Assembly (NCBI RefSeq): GCF_040112705.1
Contig: NZ_CP157804.1
Span: 3,466,001-3,530,000, forward strand
Origin: Flagellimonas sp. MMG031
Lineage (GTDB): Bacteria > Bacteroidota > Bacteroidia > Flavobacteriales > Flavobacteriaceae
Reading direction: 5' to 3'
Length of the DNA: 64,000 bases
Shown here piece by piece: positions 11,070 to 25,774 of the stretch. Numbering within the stretch: position 1 is the first letter of the stretch; the number at the start of each line of letters is the position of its first letter. The notes under the pieces were generated by a model. The model had not been told where the DNA came from, did not search any database, and was given only the letters and a program-made list of their open reading frames with translations. A program made the position numbers and the translations under genes.

Positions 11070-12080
11070 ATGAGCAAATCTAAATTAGAGTATCTATGGT
11101 TGGATGGGTATGAACCAACAGCCAATATTAGAAGTAAGACTAGAATTGAGGAAGATTTTAGCGGTAAATTGGAAGACTGCCCGATGTGGTCCTTCGACGG
11201 TTCTTCTACTAAACAAGCTGAAGGTGGTTCCTCTGACTGCCTATTGAAACCTGTTGCCATTTATCCCGACCCAGCTCGAAGAAATGGCTACTTGGTGATG
11301 ACCGAGGTATTGAACCCCGATGGAACTCCGCACGTGAGCAATTCCAGAGCCACTATTGATGATGACAATGATGATTTCTGGTTTGGATTTGAGCAGGAGT
11401 ACTTTATTATGGATACGGCCACCCAACTGCCGCTTGGCTTCCCTGTAGGTGGTTATCCTGGACCACAAGGTCTATATTATTGCTCTGTTGGTGGTAGAAA
11501 CACTTGGGGCAGAGACCTTGTTGAAGAGCATGCCGACCTATGTTTGGATGCAGGCCTTCAGTTTGAAGGAATCAATCAAGAGGTTGCTGCTGGACAGTGG
11601 GAATTCCAATTGTTCGCCAAAGGTGCCAAGAAAGCCGGTGATGAGATTTGGGTAGCACGATACTTGCTACAGCGATTGACCGAGAGCTATGGTTACTATA
11701 TTGAGTACCATCCAAAACCCATCAAAGGTGACTGGAACGGTTCCGGTATGCACGCCAACTTCTCGAACACCTTGTTGAGAACTTGTGGGTCGAAAGAAGT
11801 ATACGAAAAGGTATGTGAGGCTTTCCGTCCGGTAACCGCAGAGCACATTGCCGTTTATGGTGAGTACAACGATGAGCGATTGACCGGTAAGCACGAGACT
11901 GCCTCCATTAGCGATTTTAGCTATGGAGTTTCCGATAGAGGTGCTTCTATCCGAATTCCAATTTTGACCGTAGAGAAAGGATGGAAAGGATGGTTGGAAG
12001 ACCGAAGACCAGCTTCCAACGCTGACCCATACAAAGTAGCGGCCGTTATTGTGAAAACAGTAAAATCCGCCAACGTATAA
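11070..12080 (+). CDS. Glutamine synthetase, type II-like (beta-grasp + catalytic domain)
   Basis: 336 aa, the compact length of eukaryote-like GSII. The N-terminal beta-grasp region (about 1-90) contains WSFDGSSTKQAEGGSSDC; the catalytic region has GFEQEYFIMD, GINQEVAAGQWEFQ, the substrate-loop SGMHANFSN and TGKHETASISDFSYG with RGASIRIP. It makes glutamine from glutamate and ammonia. It is monocistronic, ended by a terminator shared with the antiporter gene. Its presence next to GSIII suggests the two are used under different nitrogen conditions (inference). Confidence 0.93.
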   Translation: MSKSKLEYLWLDGYEPTANIRSKTRIEEDFSGKLEDCPMWSFDGSSTKQAEGGSSDCLLKPVAIYPDPARRNGYLVMTEVLNPDGTPHVSNSRATIDDDNDDFWFGFEQEYFIMDTATQLPLGFPVGGYPGPQGLYYCSVGGRNTWGRDLVEEHADLCLDAGLQFEGINQEVAAGQWEFQLFAKGAKKAGDEIWVARYLLQRLTESYGYYIEYHPKPIKGDWNGSGMHANFSNTLLRTCGSKEVYEKVCEAFRPVTAEHIAVYGEYNDERLTGKHETASISDFSYGVSDRGASIRIPILTVEKGWKGWLEDRRPASNADPYKVAAVIVKTVKSANV

Positions 12081-12112
12081 ACGGATAATAGATTAGTTGT
12101 TGATTATAGGTG

Positions 12113-12145
12113 AAAACCGTCCCGAACTTTTTTGGGGCGGTTTTT
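12113..12145. terminator. Bidirectional terminator between GSII and antiporter genes
   Basis: AAAACCGTCCC (12113-12123) pairs with GGGGCGGTTTT (12134-12144), one G-T pair, with an A-run/T-run on either side. The antiporter stop codon (12144-12146) begins in the T-run. Confidence 0.85.
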
Positions 12146-13082
12146 ATGTTATGGTAAAGTATACAAATGCGGTATAAAAGGCCGCAAGGACCAGACCGTC
12201 CCTCCACCCCAATCGTAATCCTTTGGGGAAGAACACCAAGGGCAAAATAAGGAAGGATATGCCCAACATCCAAAATATGTCGTTGGACAACAATCCTTGG
12301 TCCACCACGGTTATAGGCGTGATGATAGAAGTGATTCCCAACACCGCCAACAGATTAAAGATATTGGAACCGATCAAGTTGCCAACAGAAATGGCCTTCT
12401 CCTTTTTGATAACCGCAATTACGGATGCCGCCAACTCTGGTATACTGGTCCCTACCGATACAACGGTTATCCCGATTACCCGGTCACTCACTCCAAAGGA
12501 CGAAGCCAGTCCAACAGCTCCATCGATAAGTAATTCGGAACCGCCCCAAAGGGCAGCACCGCCCAGTCCCAAGAACAAGACTGTTTTGTAGAGGGGCAGA
12601 GGTACATCGTCCTCGGGCGCATCATCCACCACGGCTGTTTTTTGAAAACGAAGCAGATACACTAAAAACACAAATAATGAGGACACCAGCACTATGCCCT
12701 CGGTTTGTCCCAATTGCCCATCAAAATAAATAAAACCAAAAAAGAGCAAGGAGGCCACCATCATCACCGGCCAGTCGGTGGTATAAAAACTTTTGCGCAC
12801 CTCAATATTGCGCAAGATTACCGTAACGGCCAACACCAGTCCCAAATTGGCAATGTTGGAACCCACCACATTGCCCAAGGCAATATCGGGAAAGCCATCC
12901 AATGCGGACTTTATACTTACAATAAGTTCTGGTGCCGAGGTTGCGAAAGAAACCACCGTCATCCCTATCACAATTTTAGGAATATTCAACTTAAGCGATA
13001 ATGCCACCGCTGACTTCAACAGCCAATTTCCTCCCGCAATCAAAAGGGCCAGACCCAAAAGTATAAACAACAGATTTCTCAA
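12144..13082 (-). CDS. Calcium/sodium antiporter (CaCA family, YrbG-like)
   Basis: 312-aa inner-membrane exchanger with about ten hydrophobic segments. The two inverted alpha-repeats of the CaCA family are present: VVSFATSAPELIVSIKSA near residue 40 and VVSVGTSIPELAASVIAVI near residue 210, each followed by a GNLIGSNIFN/GNVVGSNIAN motif. It probably expels Ca2+ using Na+. The start chosen is a TTG at 13082 (TTG AGA AAT, directly before the first transmembrane helix). The only ATG start further out, at 13169, lies inside the BlaI operator array and would add a spurious hydrophobic leader. Divergent from blaI. Confidence 0.87.
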   Translation of the reverse strand: MRNLLFILLGLALLIAGGNWLLKSAVALSLKLNIPKIVIGMTVVSFATSAPELIVSIKSALDGFPDIALGNVVGSNIANLGLVLAVTVILRNIEVRKSFYTTDWPVMMVASLLFFGFIYFDGQLGQTEGIVLVSSLFVFLVYLLRFQKTAVVDDAPEDDVPLPLYKTVLFLGLGGAALWGGSELLIDGAVGLASSFGVSDRVIGITVVSVGTSIPELAASVIAVIKKEKAISVGNLIGSNIFNLLAVLGITSIITPITVVDQGLLSNDIFWMLGISFLILPLVFFPKGLRLGWRDGLVLAAFYTAFVYFTIT

Positions 13083-13148
13083 AAGCCTAAATTTTAGAAC
13101 AAATATAAGCGTTGGGAAATTGATGCAGTACAGCAAGTTTATAAATAA

Positions 13149-13204
13149 AACTACAAAAATAGTTAACAAACTATAAAAATAGTTGTTTAACTATTTTATT
13201 AGTA
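13149..13204. promoter_or_regulatory. Three-site operator array for the BlaI-type repressor
   Basis: Three 16-bp sites of the form AACTA-N6-TAGTT occur at 13149-13164, 13169-13184 and 13189-13204 (the last ends TAGTA). Their centres are exactly 20 bp apart, so a repressor dimer could bind the same face of the helix three times, nearly two turns per step. The array lies 30 bp before the blaI ATG and between blaI and the antiporter gene. BlaI/MecI dimers are known to bind paired palindromic operators between divergent genes; assigning this array to the adjacent BlaI is inference. Confidence 0.6.
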
Positions 13205-13233
13205 TTATGTTTGGTGCAGTTAAAGATTAGATC

Positions 13234-13593
13234 ATGCAAAAATTGACCAATAAAGAAGAGGAAGTCATGAAAATCCTCTGGGAGCTCGAAAAGGCTTTTG
13301 TAAAGGAAATCCTGGAAAAAATCGAAGGGGAAAAGCCGCACTACAACACTTTATCCACCATAGTTCGGAATCTCCAGGAAAAAGGATATGTGGACCATGA
13401 AGCCTTTGGCAACACCCATCGCTATTTCCCCGTGATCAGCAAGGAACAGTACCGCAAAAAATTTGTGAATGCTGCCATTGCCGATTATTATAATGATTCC
13501 TTTAAAAGTTTGGTCTCACATTTTGCACAGGAAGAAAAAATATCCATTTCTGAACTCAAGGAAATTATCGAACTCATAGAAAGGAAGAAATAA
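13234..13593 (+). CDS. blaI: BlaI/MecI/CopY family transcriptional repressor
   Basis: 119 aa, normal length. The N-terminal winged helix starts with LTNKEEEVMKILWELEKAFVKEILEKI and has the recognition helix in HYNTLSTIVRNLQEKGYVDHE; the C-terminal helix (residues 75-119) is the dimerisation and cleavage region. These repressors are inactivated by their M56 sensor partner. Its stop codon overlaps the start of the M56 gene (TAATG), so the pair is translationally coupled. A phased palindrome array directly upstream suggests autoregulation. The signal sensed need not be a beta-lactam in Bacteroidota. Confidence 0.88.
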   Translation: MQKLTNKEEEVMKILWELEKAFVKEILEKIEGEKPHYNTLSTIVRNLQEKGYVDHEAFGNTHRYFPVISKEQYRKKFVNAAIADYYNDSFKSLVSHFAQEEKISISELKEIIELIERKK

Positions 13594-15365
13594 TGGAACC
13601 ACTATATATGTATATTTTACAGTCTGTCCTTATATCCGGAGGTTTTTTGGCGGTATACCATATCTTCTTAAAAAGGGACACCCTTTTTACCGAAAACAGA
13701 TTGTTTCTCTTATCTGGTCTGATTCTGGCCCTTGTGTTCCCGTTAATCAAGATAAAAAAGACCGTGGTCATTGCGAAACCTGCGCTGATTCAGGCAAGTG
13801 CGGCCAGTGGAGAGATGTCAACAACTCTTCAGGAAAATGGATTTTTTACGCTTCAAAATGGACTCGTTACCATCTACATAGCCGTGAGCGCTTTTTTATT
13901 GATACGGTTCATACTTAGATTGATTTCATTGAAAAATTTGGCCGAAAAAGCAGAGTGGAGAAAGGAAACCCCATTTTTGCACCTGGTCACGGAAAAGAAG
14001 ATTACCCCGTTTTCCTTTTTCAACTACATTTTTTATAATCCTCGACTTTTTGAACCCAACGAATTGCTTTCAGTCCTCGAACATGAAAAGGCGCATGCCC
14101 GGCAATGGCACACCTTGGACATCCTATTCTTGGAACTGCTGAAAATCGTGTTTTGGTTCAACCCGGTCTTATGGCTATACAAAAGTGCGGTAAAGGAAAA
14201 CCTCGAATACTTGGCGGACCATTTTGCCATAGCACGGGCTGCGGACAAAAAATCCTACCAATACCTGATGCTTAAACAGGCAGTTAATACACCAAAATAT
14301 GCCTTAACCAATTCATTTTATAATTCATTAATCAAAAAACGAATAGTCATGTTAAATCAAAATCAATCCAAAAAAATCAATGCCCTTAAAATTCTGGTGA
14401 TGCTACCCCTGTTGGGACTGTTCTTGGCAAGTTTCAGTATCAAGGAAACTTATATTTATAAGGAATCCGACAGTATAGAGGATGTAATGGTGGAAGAATC
14501 CCCCATTGATGACAAAACCGTGGAGCTTAGCATAAATAAAAACACCACGGATGCCGAATTGGACCAAATGAAGAAAGATTTGGCCGAAGATGATATCGAC
14601 TTCAGCTACACCACGGTTCGGAATGATGATAGGGAAATCATTGAAATTTCGCTACAACTGAGTGGCAAGAGTTCAGATGGTAAATCGTTCAGCGGTAATT
14701 ACAACAGCAATTCGGACGGTCCCATTGGTCCCATCACCGTGTTGTACGACGATACGAACAATGCGGTTTCCTTTTGGAATGCAGGCAAGGGCCAAAACGT
14801 CAAAATACATAAAATTAAAGGCAAAGGCTCTTGGACTACCGATGATGATACGGAAATCATCATAAAAGAAGGTGATGCAGAGAAAGAGGTCATCATTAAT
14901 GGAAAGCGATTGACGGAAGAAGAAATGGAGGAAATCGATTTAGATAACGTTGCTTCCATTTTTGTAACAAAGGACAAGGAAGATAAGGACGTCAACTATG
15001 TGACCATCAAAAAAGTGGGAGAAGAGAAACACAAGAATGTGGTGATGATCCGAACGGATGATGAAAAAAAGATCCATGTAAAAAGAGACAAAAATGTGGT
15101 GGTCATTAAAGATTCTGTGAGCGATGAAGAAAATGAGGTTATCATTGGCGATGAAGACTCCCGTTTCTTTTACATCAAAGATGATGGAAAAAGAAAACCT
15201 CTCTATTATATCGACGGTAAAAAGTCGGAATCAAAAGACTTTAAAAATATGTCCCCGGACGAGATTGAGAGCATTAGTGTGCTTAAAGGGGACACCGCGG
15301 TGGAGAAGTATGGAAAAAAGGCCAAAAATGGCGTTATCGAGGTAACTACCAAAAAAGGCAATTGA
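13593..15365 (+). CDS. M56 family metallopeptidase (BlaR1-like sensor) with TonB-plug-like tail
   Basis: 590 aa. Transmembrane segments lie near residues 5-25, 33-50, 90-112 and 262-282. The gluzincin site HEKAH, near residue 165, faces the cytoplasm in this family, with a downstream EYLAD glutamate. BlaR1 proteins cleave their BlaI partner on signal. Instead of a penicillin-binding sensor the C-terminal 300 residues are acidic, Lys/Asp-rich strands ending in a TonB-receptor plug-like segment: PLYYIDGKK, then DEIESISVLKGDTAVEKYG and NGVIEVTTKKG. So the periplasmic input is probably not a beta-lactam. Terminator at 15398-15427. Confidence 0.87.
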   Translation: MEPLYMYILQSVLISGGFLAVYHIFLKRDTLFTENRLFLLSGLILALVFPLIKIKKTVVIAKPALIQASAASGEMSTTLQENGFFTLQNGLVTIYIAVSAFLLIRFILRLISLKNLAEKAEWRKETPFLHLVTEKKITPFSFFNYIFYNPRLFEPNELLSVLEHEKAHARQWHTLDILFLELLKIVFWFNPVLWLYKSAVKENLEYLADHFAIARAADKKSYQYLMLKQAVNTPKYALTNSFYNSLIKKRIVMLNQNQSKKINALKILVMLPLLGLFLASFSIKETYIYKESDSIEDVMVEESPIDDKTVELSINKNTTDAELDQMKKDLAEDDIDFSYTTVRNDDREIIEISLQLSGKSSDGKSFSGNYNSNSDGPIGPITVLYDDTNNAVSFWNAGKGQNVKIHKIKGKGSWTTDDDTEIIIKEGDAEKEVIINGKRLTEEEMEEIDLDNVASIFVTKDKEDKDVNYVTIKKVGEEKHKNVVMIRTDDEKKIHVKRDKNVVVIKDSVSDEENEVIIGDEDSRFFYIKDDGKRKPLYYIDGKKSESKDFKNMSPDEIESISVLKGDTAVEKYGKKAKNGVIEVTTKKGN

Positions 15366-16598: not shown

Positions 16599-16672
16599 GG
16601 CCGCGTGGCGCAACTGAATAGCGCATCTGATTACGGCTCAGAAGGTTGCAGGTTTGAATCCTGCCGCGGTCA
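16599..16672 (+). tRNA. tRNA-Arg (anticodon ACG)
   Basis: A full cloverleaf can be folded: acceptor GGCCGCG/CGCGGTC with one G-T pair, D stem GCGC/GCGC, anticodon stem TCTGA/TCAGA with loop TTACGGC (ACG at 16633-16635), and T stem GCAGG/CCTGC. CCA is not encoded. A hairpin terminator follows at 16684-16716. Its 3' end is copied three more times in the window, marking it as an integration site. Confidence 0.95.
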
Positions 16673-16748: not shown

Positions 16749-16790
16749 CGCTAAGGACGTGGAACAATCCTGCCGCGGTCACGAATAAAT
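16749..16790. repeat. tRNA-Arg 3'-end repeat, copy 2 (left att-like site)
   Basis: The 25-nt core at 16766-16790 is identical to the tRNA copy. The 17 nt before it (CGCTAAGGACGTGGAAC) are not tRNA but recur at the right end of the island. It is preceded by a small hairpin AGCGC-GTA-GCGCT at 16740-16752. Confidence 0.85.
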
Positions 16791-16879: not shown

Positions 16880-16896
16880 AATCCTGCCGCGGTCAC
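16880..16896. repeat. tRNA-Arg 3'-end repeat, copy 3
   Basis: AATCCTGCCGCGGTCAC is a 17-nt exact copy of the tRNA end. It is preceded by the hairpin CAAAGC-GGA-GCTTTG (16848-16862) but not followed by a terminator. Copies 1 to 3 are spaced 109 and 114 bp apart. Confidence 0.8.
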
Positions 16897-17345
16897 TGGG
16901 CAGCAATGCCAAAACAACGAAAGTTGCAAATCATAGGGGTACCCTCCAAAATATGGGAAATTGGACTTAATACTTTCTTTTATCTCATTGTAACTAAAAT
17001 TAGACTCTTCATCCTATTCCTTTACTTCAACTTAAATCTGTGCTCCAAAAAATTGAGAATTTATACTGACTAACAACTTTATAAGATCACTATTTATCCG
17101 TTAGGTCTACGCGGAAATCAAGCACAAACAAACCGATTTGGGCCATCAATATTTAAAAATGCCCATTTTAATACATGTATAACATTTTGCGGTAATACCA
17201 CTTAAAAAAATTGTAGATAGCCAATAATTAATGTGAAAATTAAAAACAATGTTTAACTTGCCCATCTGCCAAAGTTGGCAGATTATATAACCTGAAGGTT
17301 GGCGACAATTCGAGACCGCTTTAATCATCTCGGCGGTCCAAATTA
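16897..17345. other. Left end of the island, no complete gene
   Basis: AT-rich DNA without an ORF of convincing length. A 9-bp inverted repeat ATCTGCCAA/TTGGCAGAT (17264-17272 and 17275-17283) and a hairpin GACCGC/GCGGTC (17314-17319 and 17333-17338), ending 7 nt before the regulator start, could be regulatory. A short frame at 17138-17082 rightwards (LGHQYLKMPILIHV then stop, ending 17082 to 17182 region at 17182) is discussed under findings as a doubtful integrase remnant at 17105-17182. Confidence 0.5.
17264..17338 (+). promoter_or_regulatory. Inverted repeats in front of the island regulator
   Basis: ATCTGCCAA and TTGGCAGAT (17264-17283, 2-nt spacer) make a perfect 9-bp palindrome of operator type. 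GACCGC and GCGGTC (17314-17338) form a hairpin 7 nt before the ATG at 17346, placed where it could affect ribosome access. Autoregulation of the regulator is possible; inference only. Confidence 0.4.
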
Positions 17346-19121
17346 ATGAGCACTACACAGTCCATAGCAGTCCTGCCTTTTGTCAATATGAGCAATGATA
17401 TTGACAATGAGTACTTCTGCGATGGAATCACAGAGGAAATTATAAATGCACTGACAAAAATCGACCAGCTTAAAGTTATTGCAAGAACTTCTTCCTTTGC
17501 CTTTAAGGGAAAAAACATCGATGTTAGGGAAGTTGGCAAACAACTGGGCGTGCATACGATTCTTGAAGGAAGTATTAAAAAGTCCCAAGAAAGAGTCAGA
17601 ATCACGGCACAATTAATTGATGTAGCGGACGGAACGCATTATTGGTCGAAAAGGTTCGATAGGGAATTGATCGACATTTTCGAACTAGAAGATGAAATCA
17701 GTCTGGGCATTGCTGAAGAAGTCCGCAACAACTTTGGGCATTTTGAAATTCAGGAGCGGTTGATCCAAGAACCTACCAACAGCATTGATGCCTACCAACT
17801 GTTTTTAAAAGGCCGTTCCCTACAATTAAAATGGACACCTCAAAGTATCAACGAAGCGATATCTTATTACGACCAAGCCATTGCTTTGGATAAAAATTAC
17901 GCCAAGGCGTACTATGCAAACCTACAATGCTATGGCCTACTGGCCATGTGGGGTTATATTCCATATCAAAAAGGGATAGACCTGGCGATAAGCAATTTAT
18001 TGATAGCCAAGGAACTGGATGCCTCGTTACCTGAATATCCATTGTCATTTGTTGGCAAATTCTTTTGGGAAGAATGGGATTTTAAAAATGCCTATGTCCA
18101 TATCAATAAGGTACTGGAAATCAATCCGAATCATATCGATGGTTTGGAAGCCATGGCAGAACTGTTTATGGCACTTGGTTTTTTTGACCAAGCACTGGTA
18201 CACGCAAACAAGCTATTGGAAGTAGACCCCCTTTCGGCAAACAACCATTATACCTTGGCCCATATACACTATTACCAAAATGAATTTGAGAAGGCATTGG
18301 AAGTGGTCAATTACGCGCTTACCCTGAATCCCGAACTAGAATTAGCGCATCATTTAAAATGCTTTTGTCTCATATGGCTCAATAAAGGAGCCGAATTCCT
18401 CGAATTTACCCGAAATACATCATTAGTCGAAGAAAAAAAGCTTTTGTTTAAAATCATAAATGAAAAGCACACGGAAGTTCCCCATGAGATGATTGAACAA
18501 TGGGCACGACTTGGAAACGACCAAACGATGCTGGTTCCATATGATCTGTTTATTTTAAGCAGTTCAGACCTCAAAGAACAGGCCTTCCAACGCTTAAGGG
18601 AATTGATAGACCAAAGACGCGGCCAGGTCATTAATTATAGGCAAGAGCCATTTTTGCAACCATTGCAAAGAATAAGGGCTTTTAAAGACCTACATCATTC
18701 CAGTTTATGCCTTTCGGATATTAAACTCGAAAAGGATGAAGGAGAGAAATCAACTTCAGCGGTTTTGGATAATGGTCAAATAGCCTCCTTAAAAGAAGAA
18801 CTCCTTTCCTATTTTATCGAAGAAGAGCCCTATTTAAACCAAAATTTGAGTTTAAAATTTGTGGCGGAGGTCTTGGGATTAAACACCAATAAAATGTCCT
18901 TTCTGATCAACAAAGCCTTTGATACCAATTTTAATGACTTTGTGAATTCCTACCGCTTAAAGCATTTTAAAACCATAGCGCTGAATCCTAAAAATGCGCA
19001 CCTTACCATTCTTGGGTTGGCCTATGATAGTGGTTTTAATTCCAAGAGCGTGTTCAACACCTACTTTAAAAAAACAGAAGGAGCAACACCCAGAACTTGG
19101 ATGAAATCCAATCTATCCTAA
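17346..19121 (+). CDS. Island regulator: FlgO-like + TPR + AraC-type HTH
   Basis: 591 aa, soluble, without signal or membrane segment. Residues 1-125 are the FlgO/adenylate-cyclase-associated type (SIAVLPFVNMSNDIDNEYFC, GVHTILEGSIKKSQERVRIT, DGTHYWSKRFDRE). Residues about 135-370 are TPR-like helices (YYDQAIALDKNYAKAYY, INKVLEINPNHIDGLEAMAE, NYALTLNPELELAHHL). The C-terminal 100 residues are an AraC-type double HTH ending AYDSGFNSKSVFNTYFKKTE then GATPRTW. It is a probable DNA-binding regulator sensing through the TPR part. It is the first gene of the island, and I infer it controls the two downstream operons that share a 26-bp element. Confidence 0.85.
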   Translation: MSTTQSIAVLPFVNMSNDIDNEYFCDGITEEIINALTKIDQLKVIARTSSFAFKGKNIDVREVGKQLGVHTILEGSIKKSQERVRITAQLIDVADGTHYWSKRFDRELIDIFELEDEISLGIAEEVRNNFGHFEIQERLIQEPTNSIDAYQLFLKGRSLQLKWTPQSINEAISYYDQAIALDKNYAKAYYANLQCYGLLAMWGYIPYQKGIDLAISNLLIAKELDASLPEYPLSFVGKFFWEEWDFKNAYVHINKVLEINPNHIDGLEAMAELFMALGFFDQALVHANKLLEVDPLSANNHYTLAHIHYYQNEFEKALEVVNYALTLNPELELAHHLKCFCLIWLNKGAEFLEFTRNTSLVEEKKLLFKIINEKHTEVPHEMIEQWARLGNDQTMLVPYDLFILSSSDLKEQAFQRLRELIDQRRGQVINYRQEPFLQPLQRIRAFKDLHHSSLCLSDIKLEKDEGEKSTSAVLDNGQIASLKEELLSYFIEEEPYLNQNLSLKFVAEVLGLNTNKMSFLINKAFDTNFNDFVNSYRLKHFKTIALNPKNAHLTILGLAYDSGFNSKSVFNTYFKKTEGATPRTWMKSNLS

Positions 19122-19134
19122 ACTCCCTTAGTTC

Positions 19135-19185
19135 GTTTCAGATTATAATTTAGAACGATTGACTAATCAATCCGGTTAATCTTTG
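19135..19185 (+). promoter_or_regulatory. Shared island element A and promoter of operon 1
   Basis: The 26 bp at 19135-19160 (starting GTTTCAGATTATAATT) match 22363-22388 at 20 of 26 positions, five of the six differences being transitions. In both places the element starts exactly 47 bp before the TTTG of the -7 box (here 19182-19185), and both boxes continue TTTGCA. TCGTT (19133-19137) and AACGA (19154-19158) form an inverted repeat. The position, overlapping -33, suits an AraC-type activator. Confidence 0.6.
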
Positions 19186-19201
19186 CACCAAAATCAATAA
19201 T

Positions 19202-19217
19202 CAAAAAACGAACAGTC
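19202..19217 (+). promoter_or_regulatory. Common leader motif of operon 1
   Basis: CAAAAAACGAACAGTC lies directly before the ATG at 19218. The same motif (CAAAAAACGAACAATC, one change) is found at 22441-22456 in the leader of operon 2. It may be a translation-enhancing or regulatory leader shared by the two island transcripts. Confidence 0.45.
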
Positions 19218-20321
19218 ATGAACGCATCAATCAAACAACGTTACAATTCAATCTCAAAACTCCCATTACTGCTATTGCTTACCATAGCTATGCTAGTATC
19301 GTCCTGTTCCAATGATGATGATACAAGTTTACCTTCTACAGACTACAAAAGCGTTAAAAACTTATTGACCGAAGGCGATTTTCAAGGGTATGCCATTGTT
19401 ACGAAAAACGGAAATGACTTGGTGCGCCAAGGTTTTGGCTTGGCAAATCAAAGTACGGACCTACCACAAAACCAAGAGCTCGCCTATCGCATCGGTTCGG
19501 TCAGCAAGACATTGACCGCAGCGGCCATAGTGGGATTAAAGCGGGATGGTCTTATTACTGGTTTTGACCAGACCTTGGACGAGTTTGACCCTGAATTTCC
19601 AAACGGGGACCAGATTACCATTGGGCACCTATTATCGCACCAATCCGGGATTCCTGAGTACCAATTAGTGGCGGAACAAGCTTTTGAAGAAGGTTTGGTT
19701 TTGGATCGAATGAATATCTATGCTCTCATTAAGGAACTCATTTTAGTAAACGGACTCAGCTTTACACCAGGCTCAAATAAGCACTATTGCAATTCCAACT
19801 ATCTTATTGCCGCTCTTTTGGTGGAGCAATTGTCCGGCATTTCGTACCATCAATACATCCAGCAGCATATTTTTAATCCGTTAGGCATTGCAAATTCATA
19901 CAAAGGCACCGATGAAATTGATACCAACACCCACGCACAAGGGTATCTAAATGGAAGTCACAACAGCACATATCCAATGGCCCTTGCATTTGGCGCCGGT
20001 GATTTTAGCAGTACACCAAAGGATATGGAAACCTGGACCAAAGCAGTAAAAAAAGATTGGTTTACCGAAGCTGAAAAAGCAGAAATATTTGCCCAAGATG
20101 TACCGAGTGGCTATGTAGATTTTGGTATGGGATGGTTTACGACCCAAGCGGGAAACACAACAATGTACTGGCATGGTGGTGATATTAACGGCTATTGGAG
20201 TATGATCGGTTTTATACCGGCATACGATGCAACCATTGTACTCTTGAGCAATCAGCAAGATGATACAGGAGAACAACGCAATACCATTATCCAACACTTG
20301 TTAGCCAACGAGTTTAATTGA
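19218..20321 (+). CDS. Serine hydrolase lipoprotein (beta-lactamase/DD-peptidase fold)
   Basis: 367 aa with an SPII signal ending in lipobox VSSC near residue 30, followed by an acidic NDDDT linker. The class C-like catalytic motifs are present: SVSK (SxxK, in YRIGSVSKTLTAAA), YCN (YxN) and HGG (in YWHGGDINGYW). It could hydrolyse peptides, esters or beta-lactams in the periplasm; the family is too broad to say. First gene of a four-gene operon: 23 bp to the NAD(P)-binding gene, then 12 bp, then an overlap. Preceded by the shared island element. Confidence 0.87.
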   Translation: MNASIKQRYNSISKLPLLLLLTIAMLVSSCSNDDDTSLPSTDYKSVKNLLTEGDFQGYAIVTKNGNDLVRQGFGLANQSTDLPQNQELAYRIGSVSKTLTAAAIVGLKRDGLITGFDQTLDEFDPEFPNGDQITIGHLLSHQSGIPEYQLVAEQAFEEGLVLDRMNIYALIKELILVNGLSFTPGSNKHYCNSNYLIAALLVEQLSGISYHQYIQQHIFNPLGIANSYKGTDEIDTNTHAQGYLNGSHNSTYPMALAFGAGDFSSTPKDMETWTKAVKKDWFTEAEKAEIFAQDVPSGYVDFGMGWFTTQAGNTTMYWHGGDINGYWSMIGFIPAYDATIVLLSNQQDDTGEQRNTIIQHLLANEFN

Positions 20322-20344
20322 AATAACTTAAAAACGAATTGGCT

Positions 20345-21211
20345 ATGAAACATACCAATGTATTACTTGCGGGTGCAACGGGTTATTTGGGCAGATATTT
20401 GTTGGAGGTTTTGATCGAAAAAGAAAATCAGGTCGTTGCCATTGCGCGCAATCCGGAAAAAATAAAAGCCTTCAATGAAAACTATTTAGAAATCAAACAG
20501 GCCGAGGTGACAAATCCGAAAAGCTTGCGGGACATATGTAAAGGAATCGATACCGTTATATCCACGGTTGGCATAACTCGACAGAAAGATGGACTCACTT
20601 ATATGGATGTGGATTATCAGGCGAATATGAATCTACTTGAAGAAGCCAAAAAAGCTGGGGTCAATCACTTTGTTTATGTTTCTGCGGTCGATGGCGACAC
20701 ATACAGAAATTTGAAGATCTTTGAGGCCAAAGAGAAGTTTGTTGATGCTTTACGTTCCTCCGGAATAAACTACACGATTGTTAGGCCCAATGGTTTTTTC
20801 TCGGATATGAAGGACTTTTTACAAATGGCCAAATCGGGTCGTGTGTATGTGTTCGGTTCCGGCCATCAAAGATTCAACCCTATTCATGGTGAAGATCTAG
20901 CCAGAGCCATTGTTGATACTTTAACTGATTATAATAAAGAAATGACCCTTGGAGGCCCTGATGTGCTGAGTCTCAACGAAATTGGAAAACTTGCATTCAC
21001 CGCTTTGAACAAACCTATAAGAATTGTTCATTTACCTGATTGGTCCCGAAAACTGACCCTATGGGTATTCAGAACATTCACCAGCGTCAAAACCTATGGC
21101 CCCATCGAGTTCTTTTTAACTTTAATGGCAAAGGACCATATCACACCAACTTATGGGGAAAATCGCTTAAAAGAGTATTACATAATAGAAGCTAAAAAAC
21201 TGCAAACTTAA
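20345..21211 (+). CDS. NAD(P)-binding atypical SDR (NmrA-like)
   Basis: 288 aa. The N-terminal Rossmann motif is GATGYLG, followed by VVAIARNPEK, and INYTIVRPNGFFSDM lies near the centre, as in NmrA/HSCARG-type atypical short-chain dehydrogenases. The C-terminal half (VKTYGPIEFFLTLMAKDHIT) resembles proteins that act on small membrane-associated or isoprenoid substrates, but the substrate is unknown. The ATG at 20345 is preferred over TTG at 20339. Second gene of operon 1. Confidence 0.85.
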   Translation: MKHTNVLLAGATGYLGRYLLEVLIEKENQVVAIARNPEKIKAFNENYLEIKQAEVTNPKSLRDICKGIDTVISTVGITRQKDGLTYMDVDYQANMNLLEEAKKAGVNHFVYVSAVDGDTYRNLKIFEAKEKFVDALRSSGINYTIVRPNGFFSDMKDFLQMAKSGRVYVFGSGHQRFNPIHGEDLARAIVDTLTDYNKEMTLGGPDVLSLNEIGKLAFTALNKPIRIVHLPDWSRKLTLWVFRTFTSVKTYGPIEFFLTLMAKDHITPTYGENRLKEYYIIEAKKLQT

Positions 21212-21223
21212 CTAAGAACGACC

Positions 21224-21604
21224 ATGAGAACTTGGGAAAAAGGGATGTTAATTATTGTATTGGGTTACTGCGTTATGCATTTATCCATTCTTCTGCAAAT
21301 AGTACCTCATGATATTGTATGGGGCGGTAAAATCGATTCCATCGAAAAACTTTACCTATTGGAAGGAATTGCATTGGTTACAATGCTATTTCTAGGGATG
21401 GTCCTAGCTATGAAAATCAAGATTATAAAACCTATTTTTACAGCTATGGCGATAAAAAGGATATTCATGGTATTTGCGGTCTTTTTTGCCTTGAATACCC
21501 TTGGCAACCTTCTAGCAGAAACCATGATAGAGAAGTCTCAGGCGATAATCACCTTGTTTTTTGCTATTACACTATTTAAATCATCACAACAAATCAAATC
21601 CTAA
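21224..21604 (+). CDS. Four-TM membrane protein of unknown function
   Basis: 126 aa with four hydrophobic segments: about residues 8-27, 44-62, 74-96 and 105-119. The topology and size resemble DoxX/DUF4345-like small membrane proteins, but no family motif is certain. It sits 12 bp after the SDR gene and its stop overlaps the start of the acetyltransferase gene (TAATG), so it is co-translated with it. It might be a membrane partner of the SDR. Confidence 0.6.
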   Translation: MRTWEKGMLIIVLGYCVMHLSILLQIVPHDIVWGGKIDSIEKLYLLEGIALVTMLFLGMVLAMKIKIIKPIFTAMAIKRIFMVFAVFFALNTLGNLLAETMIEKSQAIITLFFAITLFKSSQQIKS

Positions 21605-22221
21605 TGAACATTCCAGATCCAAATACCGTTTTTCCGTTGTCCAATTACAAAAACCTTTGCTTTCTAAAAAACCTGGTCAACAATCCCAACATTATTGTAG
21701 GGGACTATACTTATTATGATGATTTTGATGATGTTTCCAACTTTGAGAAAAACGTGAAGTACCATTTTGATTTTATTGGGGACAAGTTGATTATCGGCAA
21801 GTTCTGCATGATTGCATCGGGCGCCACTTTCATAATGAACGGTGGAAACCATTTAACAGAAGCAACATCAGCATATCCGTTTGCCATTTTTGGAGGGGCC
21901 TGGCAAGATGCCATGAAAGGGAAAAGCTACCCGACCAAAGGTGACACGGTCATCGGGAATGACGTATGGATAGGTCATGACGCAACCATAATGCCAGGGG
22001 TTCAGATAGGTCATGGGGCCATCATTGCCACCAAGGCGGTGGTGACCAAGAATGTGGAACCCTATACCATAGTTGGTGGAAATCCAGCGAAAGAAATAAA
22101 AAAGCGTTTTTCCGAGGATAGCATTGCAAGATTATTGGAAATGAAATGGTGGGATTGGGACTTGGAAAAAATCACCCAGAATGTAGCTAAGCTGACCTCC
22201 AATCCAGAAGAGTTGTTTTAG
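21604..22221 (+). CDS. Vat/CatB-type xenobiotic acetyltransferase
   Basis: 205 aa, typical for hexapeptide-repeat xenobiotic O-acetyltransferases. The protein reads like streptogramin A acetyltransferases: VGDYTYYDDF near the start, DKLIIGKFCMIASGATFIMN with NGGNH (the catalytic His region), GDTVIGNDVWIGHDATIMPG, IATKAVVTKNVEPYTIVGGN and MKWWDWDLEKI. It would acetylate a hydroxyl of a small antibiotic-like molecule using acetyl-CoA. Whether it gives streptogramin resistance cannot be told. Last gene of operon 1, followed by the terminator at 22261-22295. Confidence 0.88.
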   Translation: MNIPDPNTVFPLSNYKNLCFLKNLVNNPNIIVGDYTYYDDFDDVSNFEKNVKYHFDFIGDKLIIGKFCMIASGATFIMNGGNHLTEATSAYPFAIFGGAWQDAMKGKSYPTKGDTVIGNDVWIGHDATIMPGVQIGHGAIIATKAVVTKNVEPYTIVGGNPAKEIKKRFSEDSIARLLEMKWWDWDLEKITQNVAKLTSNPEELF

Positions 22222-22260
22222 GGATAAAAATCGGTTGGAAAAATAGCTTACTACTCCGGA

Positions 22261-22295
22261 AAAGGCTTAACGTTAAAATGTTGAGCCTTTTTTAT
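22261..22295 (+). terminator. Terminator of island operon 1
   Basis: AAAGGCTTAAC (22261-22271) pairs with GTTGAGCCTTT (22280-22290) with one G-T pair, followed by more T. Confidence 0.8.
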
Positions 22296-22362
22296 TTCCC
22301 ATTCATTGGCTCTGTGAGATCAAAAAGAAATAAGGCGCTCCCCTAGCCTAAAGAACAAAAAG

Positions 22363-22413
22363 GTTTCAAATCATAATTCAGTACGACCAGCCTTTCCTTT
22401 CCACATTTCTTTG
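22363..22413 (+). promoter_or_regulatory. Shared island element B and promoter of operon 2
   Basis: The 26 bp at 22363-22388 (starting GTTTCAAATCATAATT) are the counterpart of 19135-19160. The -7 box TTTCTTTG ends at 22413 and its TTTG begins 47 bp after the element starts, as in operon 1. No -33 TTG is present here, so the promoter probably needs an activator. Confidence 0.55.
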
Positions 22414-22440
22414 CATCATCAAATTAAGTTATTCATACAT

Positions 22441-22456
22441 CAAAAAACGAACAATC
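22441..22456 (+). promoter_or_regulatory. Common leader motif of operon 2
   Basis: CAAAAAACGAACAATC differs at one base from the operon 1 leader. Here it is followed by a further 15 nt (containing CTATCAAAA) before the ATG at 22472. Confidence 0.4.
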
Positions 22457-22471
22457 AAACAACTATCAAAA

Positions 22472-23116
22472 ATGAAAAAACTAGCAATCATCGGATTAAC
22501 ACTTTGTACCCTTGCCTCTTTCGCACAGGACAACAATGATTCATTGACAAACAATGGCTCAAAATTCAAGTATCGGATCAGTTTCCCCGCCATTATTTTG
22601 GCCAATATTGGTGAAGGAGGCGAACGGACGAATACACAGCACATTGAGCTCCATGTAAAGCAAGAATTGGATTCCAAGAATATAATAGGTGTGAAATTTG
22701 CAACCTGGAGACTATTTCAACCCATGGGTATCCAATGGTGGGATGGCCTTTTGGACAAAATAGATTCTGAAACGGAGTTCTATCCCGGTTATCTTAGGGA
22801 AACAGGAATTGGCGTATCTTACCAACGTATGCTTTGGAAAGGATTGTTTGCCTCCGTGGAGGTCTTGCCACAATACAAAACGTATTTGGACTTGGACAAC
22901 AAAAAAATAGCAAATGGATTTAAGCTCTATACCTCCTATCATCTTGGATATCACTTTGCCTTTGGGAAAAAGAAACGAATCTTTGTTGAACCACAAATTC
23001 ATTGTCAAAATTGGATGATCGACACCAATACCCCTGATGAATTCAAACGGTTGGACAACAAATGGAAAAACTATTTCCTTTTTGAACCCAACCTATATGT
23101 GGGCATTAAATTTTAA
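22472..23116 (+). CDS. Secreted, probable outer-membrane protein of unknown function
   Basis: 214 aa. Residues 1-19 are a signal peptide ending SFAQ. The mature chain alternates aromatic and polar residues in strands (FKLYTSYHLGYHFAFGKKKR, FLFEPNLYVGIKF) and ends in Phe, as outer-membrane beta-barrels do; about eight to ten strands would fit. No family recognised. It is the first gene of island operon 2, with 27 bp to the serine hydrolase gene. Confidence 0.65.
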   Translation: MKKLAIIGLTLCTLASFAQDNNDSLTNNGSKFKYRISFPAIILANIGEGGERTNTQHIELHVKQELDSKNIIGVKFATWRLFQPMGIQWWDGLLDKIDSETEFYPGYLRETGIGVSYQRMLWKGLFASVEVLPQYKTYLDLDNKKIANGFKLYTSYHLGYHFAFGKKKRIFVEPQIHCQNWMIDTNTPDEFKRLDNKWKNYFLFEPNLYVGIKF

Positions 23117-23143: not shown

Positions 23144-24280
23144 ATGAGAGATTGTTTACACTTTCTAACTGTTATTTTTATCGCAGTAAACGGCTATGGA
23201 CAACAACATTTGGATACGGTCATCAAACGATTGTTTGATGACCAAATGGAAAAAACGGAAGTCAAAAATGCTTTCTTGCAGGTGTACTCCAAATCTAAAG
23301 GTATCAATATTCAATTTGCCGATAGCGATGATTGTACGGAAGATGCTCCAACGATGGAAAATCCCATTTATACAGCCAGTATCACCAAGATGTTTACGGC
23401 CACTGCCATAGGCATCCTAAAGGATAACGGGAAATTAAATTTTGAGGACCAGATATACCAGCACCTTCCAGAGCAATTGATGAAGAACCTGCATGTGCTA
23501 GAAGGCGAAGAATATTCCAAGGACATTACCATTTCCCATTTATTACAGCACACTTCAGGCTTGCCAGACTATTTTACGGGTACCACCGTTGATGGTAGTC
23601 CAAATATAATCAATCAGCTACTGGTGGATACGGACAAATCTTGGTCCCCTCAAGAAATGATTGCCTTTAGCAAAGAGAAAATGGAGCCCCATTTTGTACC
23701 GGGTCAAGGGTACCACTATACCGATACGGAGTATGTGCTTTTGGCCTTGATCATTGAAAATGTGAGCGGCACCACTTTAGATCAGTTCTTTCAACAGTAC
23801 ATTTTTGAACCTTTGGGTATGGATGCGTCCTATATCAATTTAAAATCGACCCCAATAAAAAAGCAATTACCAATGGCCAAGTTTTATGCTGGTGATATTG
23901 CGTTATCGTCCATCCAAAGTCTGAGTGCCGACTGGGGCGGTGGTGGTTTGGTATCCACAACACAAGATCTTGTGCAATTTCTAGTAGCCTTCCAAGAAGA
24001 TAAAATCGTAAAAAAAGAAACCCGTTTGACAATGCAACATTGGACGCATGAAACCAAAGGAATGGAATATGGTTTTGGGATACGAAAAGTATCTTTTAAT
24101 AATCTTTTTGATACGGATACACACCTAGAGGTTATCGGGCACACCGGCAGTACAGCATCCTTTTTATGGTACTGTTCACAATTGGATACGTATATTGCAG
24201 GTACTTTAAATCAATTGGAAGCTTCCAAAAGCACATTGAACTGGGTATATGAGATTCTTTCATTGATCGATCAACACTAA
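23144..24280 (+). CDS. Secreted serine hydrolase (beta-lactamase/DD-peptidase fold)
   Basis: 378 aa with signal peptide ending GYGQ near residue 20. Motifs are SITK (SxxK, in YTASITKMFTATAIG), YTD in place of YxN (YHYTDTEYVLLAL) and HTG (IGHTGSTASFLWY). The Asp in the second motif occurs in esterase-like members of the family. It is the second serine hydrolase on the island and only distantly similar to the first. It is followed by the S41 protease gene after 4 bp, so the two are translated together. Confidence 0.85.
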   Translation: MRDCLHFLTVIFIAVNGYGQQHLDTVIKRLFDDQMEKTEVKNAFLQVYSKSKGINIQFADSDDCTEDAPTMENPIYTASITKMFTATAIGILKDNGKLNFEDQIYQHLPEQLMKNLHVLEGEEYSKDITISHLLQHTSGLPDYFTGTTVDGSPNIINQLLVDTDKSWSPQEMIAFSKEKMEPHFVPGQGYHYTDTEYVLLALIIENVSGTTLDQFFQQYIFEPLGMDASYINLKSTPIKKQLPMAKFYAGDIALSSIQSLSADWGGGGLVSTTQDLVQFLVAFQEDKIVKKETRLTMQHWTHETKGMEYGFGIRKVSFNNLFDTDTHLEVIGHTGSTASFLWYCSQLDTYIAGTLNQLEASKSTLNWVYEILSLIDQH

Positions 24281-24284
24281 TCAG

Positions 24285-25535
24285 ATGAATGTCGCCCAAA
24301 AAGTACTGATCTATTTTTTTATGTATGTCCTGGCATCGCTGTCCAATACATTATTTGCCCAATCAAAGGTAGATATTGACTGGAAAAAGGACCTTTCAAT
24401 ATATAAGTCTTCGTTGGAAGAAAGACATATTAACCTGTACCATTCGATTACGGAAGAAGAATTCGCAAAGGATTGGAACCGTATATATGATAGTGTAGCA
24501 GTCTTGAATGATTTCGATATCACGGTAAGATTGATGCGTTTAACACGTCGTATAAATGATGGCCATACGGCTGTATCCTCAAGGAATGTCCCCTTACATC
24601 GATTTCCTTTCGAAGCGGAATATATTGACAATCATTGGAGGGTGGTCAAAGCCAGTAAAGCGCATGAGGACCTATTGAAGTTTACCTTGGCAGGGATTGA
24701 TGGTGTTCCCATAGAAAAGATTGCGAGCAAAGTCGCCAAGACAGCACAATTTGTGGAAAACGAATACTCACAAGTCATAAGAACAGGAAGTTATATGAAT
24801 ATCAGTGAGTTGCTCTTCGCACTTGGCATTATCCAAAACCAGCAAAAGGCAGTCTTCACATTTGTAGACCCAAATAATAAGGAAGTAAAATTAACCTTGG
24901 AAGCTTTAGATGAAGCGGTTTACAACAAAACAACGGATTTTGTTCATGTAAGCGGTGGAGTGCCAGAAATCACAAAACCAAAAAACGCCAAATTTCCCTA
25001 TTTATGGTACGTGCCCATTGAAGGCACCAAGGCGGTCTATATCAATTTTGAAAGCTATCCAACCTTTGAGGAAATGCAAGGCTTTGGGGAAGAACTGGTG
25101 GGCTATATTTCGGCGAACCAGATAAAACAAGTGGTGATAGATATGCGCCACAATGGTGGCGGCGACCTGTATGTCGGGGTGGTTTTGGCCTATGCCCTGA
25201 ACCTCGCGGATTCCATAGACTGGGAAAACGGGGTGTTTGTATTGACAAGTAACCGAACTTTTTCTGCAGGAACGAGCAATGCGGCTCTGTTCAAACAATT
25301 ATTGAATGCAAAAATTGTGGGCCAGCCTACAGGTTCCAATCCAAATGGATACCAAGACATGGACAGTTTTATGCTTCCTGGCTCCAAATTGACCATCACC
25401 TATTCGAAAAGGCTTTTTCGTTTATCAAATCAAGAAAACACCGCTCTACAACCAGATATAATTATCAATCAACAAGAGCAACATTTCTTGGAGGGAACCG
25501 ATACGGTTTTAAAACAATTGATTGAACGGTTGTAA
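24285..25535 (+). CDS. S41 family (C-terminal processing protease-like) peptidase
   Basis: 416 aa with a signal peptide ending LFAQ. Residues about 75-85 hold RRINDGHT as in S41 tricorn/CTP-like enzymes. The catalytic core has VVIDMRHNGGGD, the nucleophile in RTFSAGTSNA, and GQPTGSNPNGY. There is no clear PDZ domain, so it belongs to the shorter S41 group. It is probably periplasmic and cuts peptides or lipoproteins; combined with the preceding serine hydrolase it suggests a cell-envelope or antibiotic-peptide task. Last gene of the island; no clear terminator was seen. Confidence 0.85.
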   Translation: MNVAQKVLIYFFMYVLASLSNTLFAQSKVDIDWKKDLSIYKSSLEERHINLYHSITEEEFAKDWNRIYDSVAVLNDFDITVRLMRLTRRINDGHTAVSSRNVPLHRFPFEAEYIDNHWRVVKASKAHEDLLKFTLAGIDGVPIEKIASKVAKTAQFVENEYSQVIRTGSYMNISELLFALGIIQNQQKAVFTFVDPNNKEVKLTLEALDEAVYNKTTDFVHVSGGVPEITKPKNAKFPYLWYVPIEGTKAVYINFESYPTFEEMQGFGEELVGYISANQIKQVVIDMRHNGGGDLYVGVVLAYALNLADSIDWENGVFVLTSNRTFSAGTSNAALFKQLLNAKIVGQPTGSNPNGYQDMDSFMLPGSKLTITYSKRLFRLSNQENTALQPDIIINQQEQHFLEGTDTVLKQLIERL

Positions 25536-25735: not shown

Positions 25736-25774
25736 CGCTAAGGACGTGGAACCATCCTGCCGCGGTCACGAATA
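25736..25774. repeat. tRNA-Arg 3'-end repeat, copy 4 (right att-like site)
   Basis: Matches 16749-16787 at 38 of 39 positions (A to C at 25753). The tRNA-derived core is 25754-25774, ATCCTGCCGCGGTCACGAAT then A. It lies 200 bp after the last island gene and 19 bp before the stop of the next, minus-strand operon, marking the right boundary of the island. Confidence 0.85.

Follow-up and report, generated by a model that had tools for sequence, protein, structure and literature searches.

AraC, RhaS and MelR are class II activators of the AraC/XylS family, in which one AraC domain spans about 17-20 bp. For flavobacterial promoters, the accessible part of PMC2483708 describes the -33 motif as not essential, although full activity requires it. 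The system considered here is a gene cassette of Flagellimonas sp. MMG031 (GCF_040112705.1, contig NZ_CP157804.1), located within positions 3,466,001-3,530,000 of the forward strand. This stretch of 64,000 nt is called the window; coordinates without a label refer to it, while L-numbers denote compared loci and G-numbers compared genomes. The cassette consists of a regulator gene followed by two operons (Table 1), and each operon is preceded by the same short DNA element. With a probability of about 0.82, this element serves as the operator for an AraC-type activator, the product of 17346-19121, and spans the -33 region in front of both operons; binding and activation are inferred from sequence comparison. 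Among the open-access literature matches listed, as far as their text was accessible, this kind of regulator (FlgO-like/TPR/AraC), its cassette and its binding site are undescribed.

Two elements at the same distance from a TTTG box

Element 1 (19135-19160, GTTTCAGATTATAATTTAGAACGATT) and element 2 (22363-22388, GTTTCAAATCATAATTCAGTACGACC) are identical at 20 of 26 positions, and five of the six differences (G/A, T/C, T/C, A/T, T/C, T/C) are transitions. A TTTG is found 47 bp after the start of each element, at 19182 and 22410, and reads on as TTTGCA in both cases. This agreement and this spacing had been pointed out in a first-pass annotation of the DNA, and both were reproduced. The annotation had further described the element as a unit of 26 bp. 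The sequence match is confirmed, and the conserved unit can be refined to a near-palindromic dyad with a 22-bp core (19135-19156 and 22363-22384); the symmetry of operator 1 extends two extra bases on each side (19133-19158).

By itself, the pair of elements is suggestive, since in pairs of upstream regions simulated with a first-order Markov model the best ungapped 26-mer match reached at least 20 in 1 of 200 cases (phase not counted). In the real pair, the highest-scoring 26-mer match (21) falls in the leader and not in the element. The case thus rests on the comparison across genomes.

The element in related bacteria

The sites were collected from 41 loci (the window, L008-L039, L121-L124, L129 and L131-L133; L040, L125-L128 and L130 were omitted). 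They were chosen by a 26-mer score of at least 18.5 alone, and a TTTG was not demanded. This yields 76 sites, and in 67 of them a TTTG is located at exactly +47, at a background frequency of 0.0087 per position. The other nine are readings of the dyad on the opposite strand: six mirror listed sites, and three, when read forward, also have their TTTG at +47. No site of at least 18.5 occurs in a single order-2 Markov copy made from 32 of these loci (528,067 bp, scanned on both strands). The alignment of the upstream regions of homologous operons, which had been proposed as a check, thus shows the element and its 47-bp phase to be kept in many genera.

Some of the 41 loci are the same or almost the same locus, and 41 non-redundant sites remain. 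Around the axis between positions 11 and 12, these sites display a complementarity of 65% (13-bp arms), as compared to 39% or less at the 13 other axes tried; their majority sequence is GTTTCAAATTATAATTCAGAACGATT. L188 and L054 each have, at phase 47, a dyad that is perfect over 11+11 bases. The 21-bp spacer behind the element is constant in length, and most of its sequence is poorly conserved.

The TTG of promoter 1 has no counterpart at that place in promoter 2. This absence had been reported correctly, but it is not peculiar to promoter 2: a TTG is present in the -33 region of 34 of the 67 sites and lacking in 33, including some first-operon promoters.

In many loci the gene order is also maintained, with losses and additions: regulator, element, serine hydrolase, SDR protein, 126-amino-acid (aa) protein, acetyltransferase, element, 214-aa protein, serine hydrolase and S41 peptidase. 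An extra element with its TTTG at +47 precedes a gene for a 324-326-aa protein in L015, L019, L024, L026 and L032 (an alpha/beta-hydrolase in L015, the only one of these genes tested), and extra elements precede a gene for a 200-217-aa protein in L010, L014 and L020.

The leader that both transcripts had been said to share (TCAAAAAACGAACA) is indeed present in both, whereas the claim that it is private to them does not hold. With at most one mismatch the motif has 25 matches in the genome (4 for the reversed pattern), several of which immediately precede the start codons of other genes. The idea that it marks the regulon is therefore rejected. The leader probably aids translation, because a looser form of it is kept in 47 of the 67 cassette promoters. 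Two of the 25 matches (L156 and L170) are, judged by eye, likely coding matches in M56-type genes.

The regulator and its distribution

The C-terminal domain of the regulator is recognized as AraC-type by HTH_18 (46.4 bits, cut-off 33.6, residues 507-587, E 4.8e-12), and the TPR repeats by TPR_2 (Pfam, E 1.7e-14). The N-terminal domain scores just under the cut-offs of FlgO (PF17680, 22.0 vs 22.6) and TolB_N (PF04052, 21.0 vs 22.4) and has no PDB match; it is termed FlgO/TolB-like and no more. Orthologues with 68-98% identity occur in Muricauda, Maribacter, Pseudozobellia, Kordia, Tenacibaculum, Winogradskyella, Arenibacter, Yeosuana, Flavobacterium, Algibacter, Lutibacter and Flammeovirga; for remoter relatives the identity is 35-60% (33 loci in total, one matching over 60 residues only). 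Overall, the regulator is found in 38 of 299 genomes of the family and in 10 of 71 genomes of the genus, with at least 71% identity in five of these ten. On plasmids, 227 records match the regulator. Among the 20 listed, a single one extends over 80% or more of the query (Aureibacter, 27.5% identity), and the other 19 match its N-terminal/TPR part only, in cyclase-type proteins.

Autoregulation through the element was considered and rejected: in the 41 loci, none of the regulators has a site of at least 18.5 upstream, and the upstream sequences are dissimilar by eye. L190 and L192, which encode distant regulators of the genus (38-39% identity), have a phase-47 site upstream of the regulator that faces a divergent gene (scores 18.5 and 16.0, respectively). 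Genome G173 contains two paralogous regulators, at L130 and L131, and a different variant of the dyad adjoins each of them (GTTTCAGATTATAATTTAGAAC and GTCCGAGATTATAATTTCGGAC). No conserved small peptide gene was seen beside the regulator in ten loci inspected by eye.

Coupling of the regulator and the element

The exact pattern of the element has two matches in the 3.76-Mb genome. With up to three mismatches, the first genome pattern is found at 31 places (control: 21) and the spaced pattern at 60 (control: 52); these counts are near those of the controls, and therefore nothing beyond the two sites stands out. Across the family, the exact pattern is present in 11 of the 299 genomes (18 sites; control: none). 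All 11 belong to the 38 that bear the regulator, and none of the 261 genomes without the regulator contains the pattern. The probability of this co-occurrence is 3.4e-11, if the genomes are taken as independent. Within the genus, the spaced pattern occurs twice in 4 of the 71 genomes (two of which are one species), all of them among the five with a regulator of at least 71% identity; in the fifth, G315, the dyad at phase 47 is perfect and its sequence diverged. G338 and G343 display one spaced-pattern match each (control: one). For the five genus genomes with regulators of 37-41% identity, weak phase-47 sites are found downstream in L189 and L191 (16.0 and 15.0), and no resembling phase-47 site in L193.

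The position of the site relative to the regulator was analysed for 47 of 63 regulator loci, by counting sites of at least 16 with a TTTG at +47, located at most 950 bp downstream of the stop codon. The omitted loci are L016, L030, L040-L043, L053, L055-L057, L059, L061, L063, L064, L066 and L068, and the element is present in L016, L030, L041-L043, L055 and L056 among them. Such a site follows 40 of the 47 regulators and none of 94 control stretches (one control reached 14). This is not a second test of the phase, as the TTTG at +47 was demanded of sites and controls alike. In 32 of the 40 cases, the site starts 10-45 bp past the stop codon of the regulator (offset from the first base of the stop).

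The element diverges together with the AraC domain. For 34 non-redundant regulators, the distance between elements correlates with that between AraC domains (r 0.77), and the partial correlation amounts to 0.57 with the TPR region held constant and to 0.38 with the N-domain held constant; none of 2000 permutations reached the respective value. Given the AraC domain, the partial correlation with the TPR region is -0.16. Element divergence follows the AraC domain of the regulator rather than its TPR region.

Proposed mechanism and alternative explanations

In the proposed mechanism, the TPR region, together with the FlgO/TolB_N-like domain, would act as sensor, and the regulator plus its signal would bind the dyad via the C-terminal AraC domain. 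If the TTTG is read as a -7 box in the usual way, the operator would be located about 32-57 bp upstream of the inferred start, over the -33 region. The regulator would then help the RNA polymerase to use TTTG -7 promoters whose -33 box is weak or absent (class II-like activation). The first transcript would encode the serine hydrolase, the SDR protein, the 126-aa protein and the Vat-like acetyltransferase, and the second one the 214-aa protein, the other serine hydrolase and the S41 peptidase. Judging from its serine hydrolases, its S41 peptidase and its Vat-like acetyltransferase, the cassette may respond to envelope or xenobiotic stress. With the predicted start sites, all 67 sites are found in the class II position, at a fixed phase over the -35/-33 region. 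The need of the -33 motif for full activity, as stated in the accessible part of PMC2483708, also agrees with promoters that depend on an activator for their strength.

That the two operons form a regulon read by the adjacent FlgO-like/TPR/AraC protein, as had been proposed at first, is supported by the phase, the co-occurrence, the rarity of the element and its co-divergence with the AraC domain. Several observations weigh against it. No downstream site of at least 16 follows 7 of the 47 regulators, all of them distant, and the exact pattern is missing from 27 of the 38 family genomes with a regulator, in most of which the regulator is distant. In G001 the element lies at the end of a contig, where the regulator gene is truncated, and the regulator match is found on a different contig; the final bases ahead of the element resemble the C-terminus of the regulator. 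L125 has a site of 19.5 away from cassette genes, with its TTTG at +49. The spaced pattern is also matched, with a single mismatch, at two further places in the genome, most likely by chance (26-mer score 14.5, dyad 6 and 5 of 11). The N-domain also tracks the element when the AraC domain is given (partial correlation 0.37), and common descent therefore explains part of the covariation. Lastly, a palindrome of 22-26 bp leaves little room for two complete AraC domains next to each other.

The same dyad could serve a repressor. In that case, the regulator would block the -33 region until a signal releases it, and a site at this place would hinder the polymerase; the TTG kept at 34 of the 67 sites is in line with this. 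AraC-family proteins are mostly activators, however, and the single fixed phase suggests contact with the polymerase. Moreover, the 33 sites without TTG would be weak promoters without help, going by the accessible part of PMC2483708. Repression is thus considered unlikely, and it is less likely still that another regulator of the chromosome reads the element. The genome does encode further AraC-type domains, but the restriction of the exact pattern, among the family genomes, to those bearing the regulator, the position of most sites shortly behind the regulator stop codon and the covariation with its AraC domain argue for the adjacent protein.

The agreement in element, phase and leader, together with a PF00144 gene in both operons, might also be thought to result from the mere copying of one promoter, with no regulator involved. 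Hardly any weight is given to this idea: in different genera both elements are retained at an unchanged phase, whereas most of the spacer sequence varies, and the two serine hydrolases are merely 27% identical over 218 residues. Activation by the adjacent AraC-type protein is preferred.

Three types of putative sensor and their possible exchange on a kept operator

Identity tables of 11-16 chosen loci distinguish three sensor types among the regulators. In type 2 (L037-L039 and L124), residues 1-125 are 76-86% identical to those of the window regulator, the TPR region 19-21% and the AraC domain 60-61%. For type 3 (L033 and L123), these values are 70-71%, 26-28% and 58-65%. The targets behave differently from the sensors. 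Between L036 (type 1) and L038/L039 (type 2), the 214-aa protein is 90-95% identical, the SDR protein 91-94% and the acetyltransferase 92-93%, whereas the regulators share 18% in the TPR region and 60% in the AraC domain. L036 and L039 even have an operator 2 that is identical over 26 bases, with targets of 91-95% and sensors of 18% identity. The regulator of L124 is a mosaic: its N-domain is 86% identical to that of the window (75% to L038), while its TPR region and AraC domain are 72% and 93% identical to those of L038.

Because near-identical targets and operator 2 are paired with TPR regions of 18% identity, and because of the mosaic in L124, it appears that the regulator, or sensor and reader together, was exchanged while the operator and the operons were kept. 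A more specific scenario is put forward tentatively, at slightly less than even odds: recombination may swap the TPR sensor, mostly along with the AraC domain, whereas the operator and targets stay, so that related bacteria would respond to different signals in a pherotype-like manner.

Gene inventory and surroundings of the cassette

Table 1. Features of the cassette in the window
Feature	Position	Strand	Basis or remark
Direct repeat (39 bp) bracketing the cassette	16749-16787 (left copy); 25736-25774 (right copy)	+	one mismatch between the copies
Regulator, 591 aa: FlgO/TolB_N-like N-domain, TPR repeats, C-terminal AraC-type DNA-binding domain (HTH_18)	17346-19121	+	Pfam, orthologues
Operator 1, near-palindrome, axis between 19145 and 19146	19133-19160	+	26-mer 19135-19160; symmetric stretch 19133-19158
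TTTG, -7 box of promoter 1	19182-19185	+	47 bp past element start; TTG at 19159-19161 overlaps element end
Leader motif TCAAAAAACGAACA, operon 1	19201-19214	+	other genes have the leader too, not private
Serine hydrolase PF00144 (S12/DD-peptidase-like)	19218-20321	+	Pfam; lipoprotein-like signal judged by eye
NAD(P)-binding SDR/NmrA-like protein	20345-21211	+	
126-aa protein, hydrophobic by eye	21224-21604	+	no Pfam or NCBIfam match
Hexapeptide acetyltransferase near the Vat family	21604-22221	+	NCBIfam Vat_ABCDEFH 292.1 bits; PDB Vat chains E ~5e-66
Hairpin with terminal T run, intrinsic-terminator-like, between operon 1 and operator 2	22258-22293	+	RNA fold
Operator 2, axis between 22373 and 22374	22363-22388	+	sequence comparison
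TTTG, -7 box of promoter 2, whose -33 region lacks a TTG	22410-22413	+	
Leader motif, operon 2	22440-22453	+	
214-aa protein, export signal by eye, no known family	22472-23116	+	straight after the second element in many cassettes
Second PF00144 serine hydrolase	23144-24280	+	
S41-family peptidase	24285-25535	+	

The acetyltransferase stays below the Vat cut-off of NCBIfam NF000311 (292.1 vs 300 bits) and is assigned, by sequence, as a chromosomal close relative of the Vat streptogramin A acetyltransferases, just under the family cut-off. Its gene shares an operon with a PF00144 serine hydrolase. Both PF00144 genes score far under the class C beta-lactamase cut-off of NCBIfam NF033085 (60.5 and 49 vs 415 bits), and the best PDB matches of their products are D-peptidase and PBP-related PF00144 proteins.

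The 214-aa protein gave nothing convincing in a profile search of the PDB (three matches, best E 0.57). It is 76-90% identical between genera and is present at 78% identity or more in 11 of the 299 family genomes, all of them regulator-bearing. Three other family genomes have relatives of 31-32%, and in L125-L128, with distant relatives (about 30%), no element is found beside that gene.

The hairpin between the operons (-18.5 kcal/mol, z -5.6) is matched by none of 200 shuffles in the RNA fold analysis, and would act as a terminator-like structure closing operon 1 ahead of operator 2. It is absent from the matches of a consensus promoter/terminator scan, which is based on a sigma-70 model and performs at chance level.

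The 1-kb bins of the cassette (17-24 kb) have a GC content of 38-42%, and the flanking bins (8-34 kb) 42-55%, except for three at 13-15 kb with 36-40%. GC content is thus weak evidence for an island. The core of the bracketing repeat (TCCTGCCGCGGTCACG) occurs again at 16657 and partly at 16880. Homology with L008, a relative at 98%, breaks at 16767, and homology with [Muricauda] yonaguniensis starts at 17341, five bases ahead of the start codon of the regulator. The presence of the cassette in the genus is sporadic. Against a simple recent insertion speaks a Lutibacter metagenome-assembled genome (L026, 446-4613), which shares four upstream genes with 11070-15365 of the window. One of these is a penicillinase-repressor-like gene; the other three, named by eye, are a BlaR1-like gene and genes for glutamine synthetase and an exchanger.

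In three genera, a prokaryotic Argonaute gene ends directly before the regulator (L015:5924-7987, L032:5899-7986 and L025:6816-8000; PADLOC pAgo, E down to 4e-276), the open reading frame in L025 covering the C-terminal part of the model only. A type IIG restriction-modification gene (L032:1415-4729) is located near the Argonaute gene and the cassette.

Comparison with known systems

The dyad represents a comparatively supported operator for the FlgO-like/TPR/AraC regulators of flavobacteria, a class without a described binding site in the accessible text of the literature searched. It could be used to find the regulons of this class genome by genome. The apparent exchange of sensors on a constant operator offers a testable case of a mobile cassette changing what triggers a response.

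The locus shares with the AraC/XylS class II activators the AraC-type C-terminal domain, a site at or over the upstream box of the promoter and an adjacent target operon. It differs from them in its putative sensor, where a FlgO/TolB_N-like domain plus TPR takes the place of a small sugar-binding domain, and in its short dyad of 22-26 bp at a Bacteroidetes TTTG-type promoter. The N-terminal and TPR part also resembles the HilA/EilA-type regulators (NCBIfam NF009037, residues 3-320, 40.9 bits). This score, however, is far under the cut-off of 589, and the regulator described here has an AraC domain at its C-terminus.

CgrA (ZGAL_3159), the regulator of the carrageenan regulon in Zobellia, is likewise a positive regulator of the AraC family that acts on a gene cluster in a flavobacterium. 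In contrast, it serves sugar catabolism, and the accessible part of its report describes no operator motif (PMC5698469). Finally, the TTTG -7 box is common to the -7/-33 promoters of Flavobacterium and Bacteroides, as far as these are covered by the accessible part of PMC2483708. In the cassette, the operator dyad overlaps or replaces the -33 box, which suggests how a promoter of the Bacteroidetes type may be activated when this box is weak or missing.

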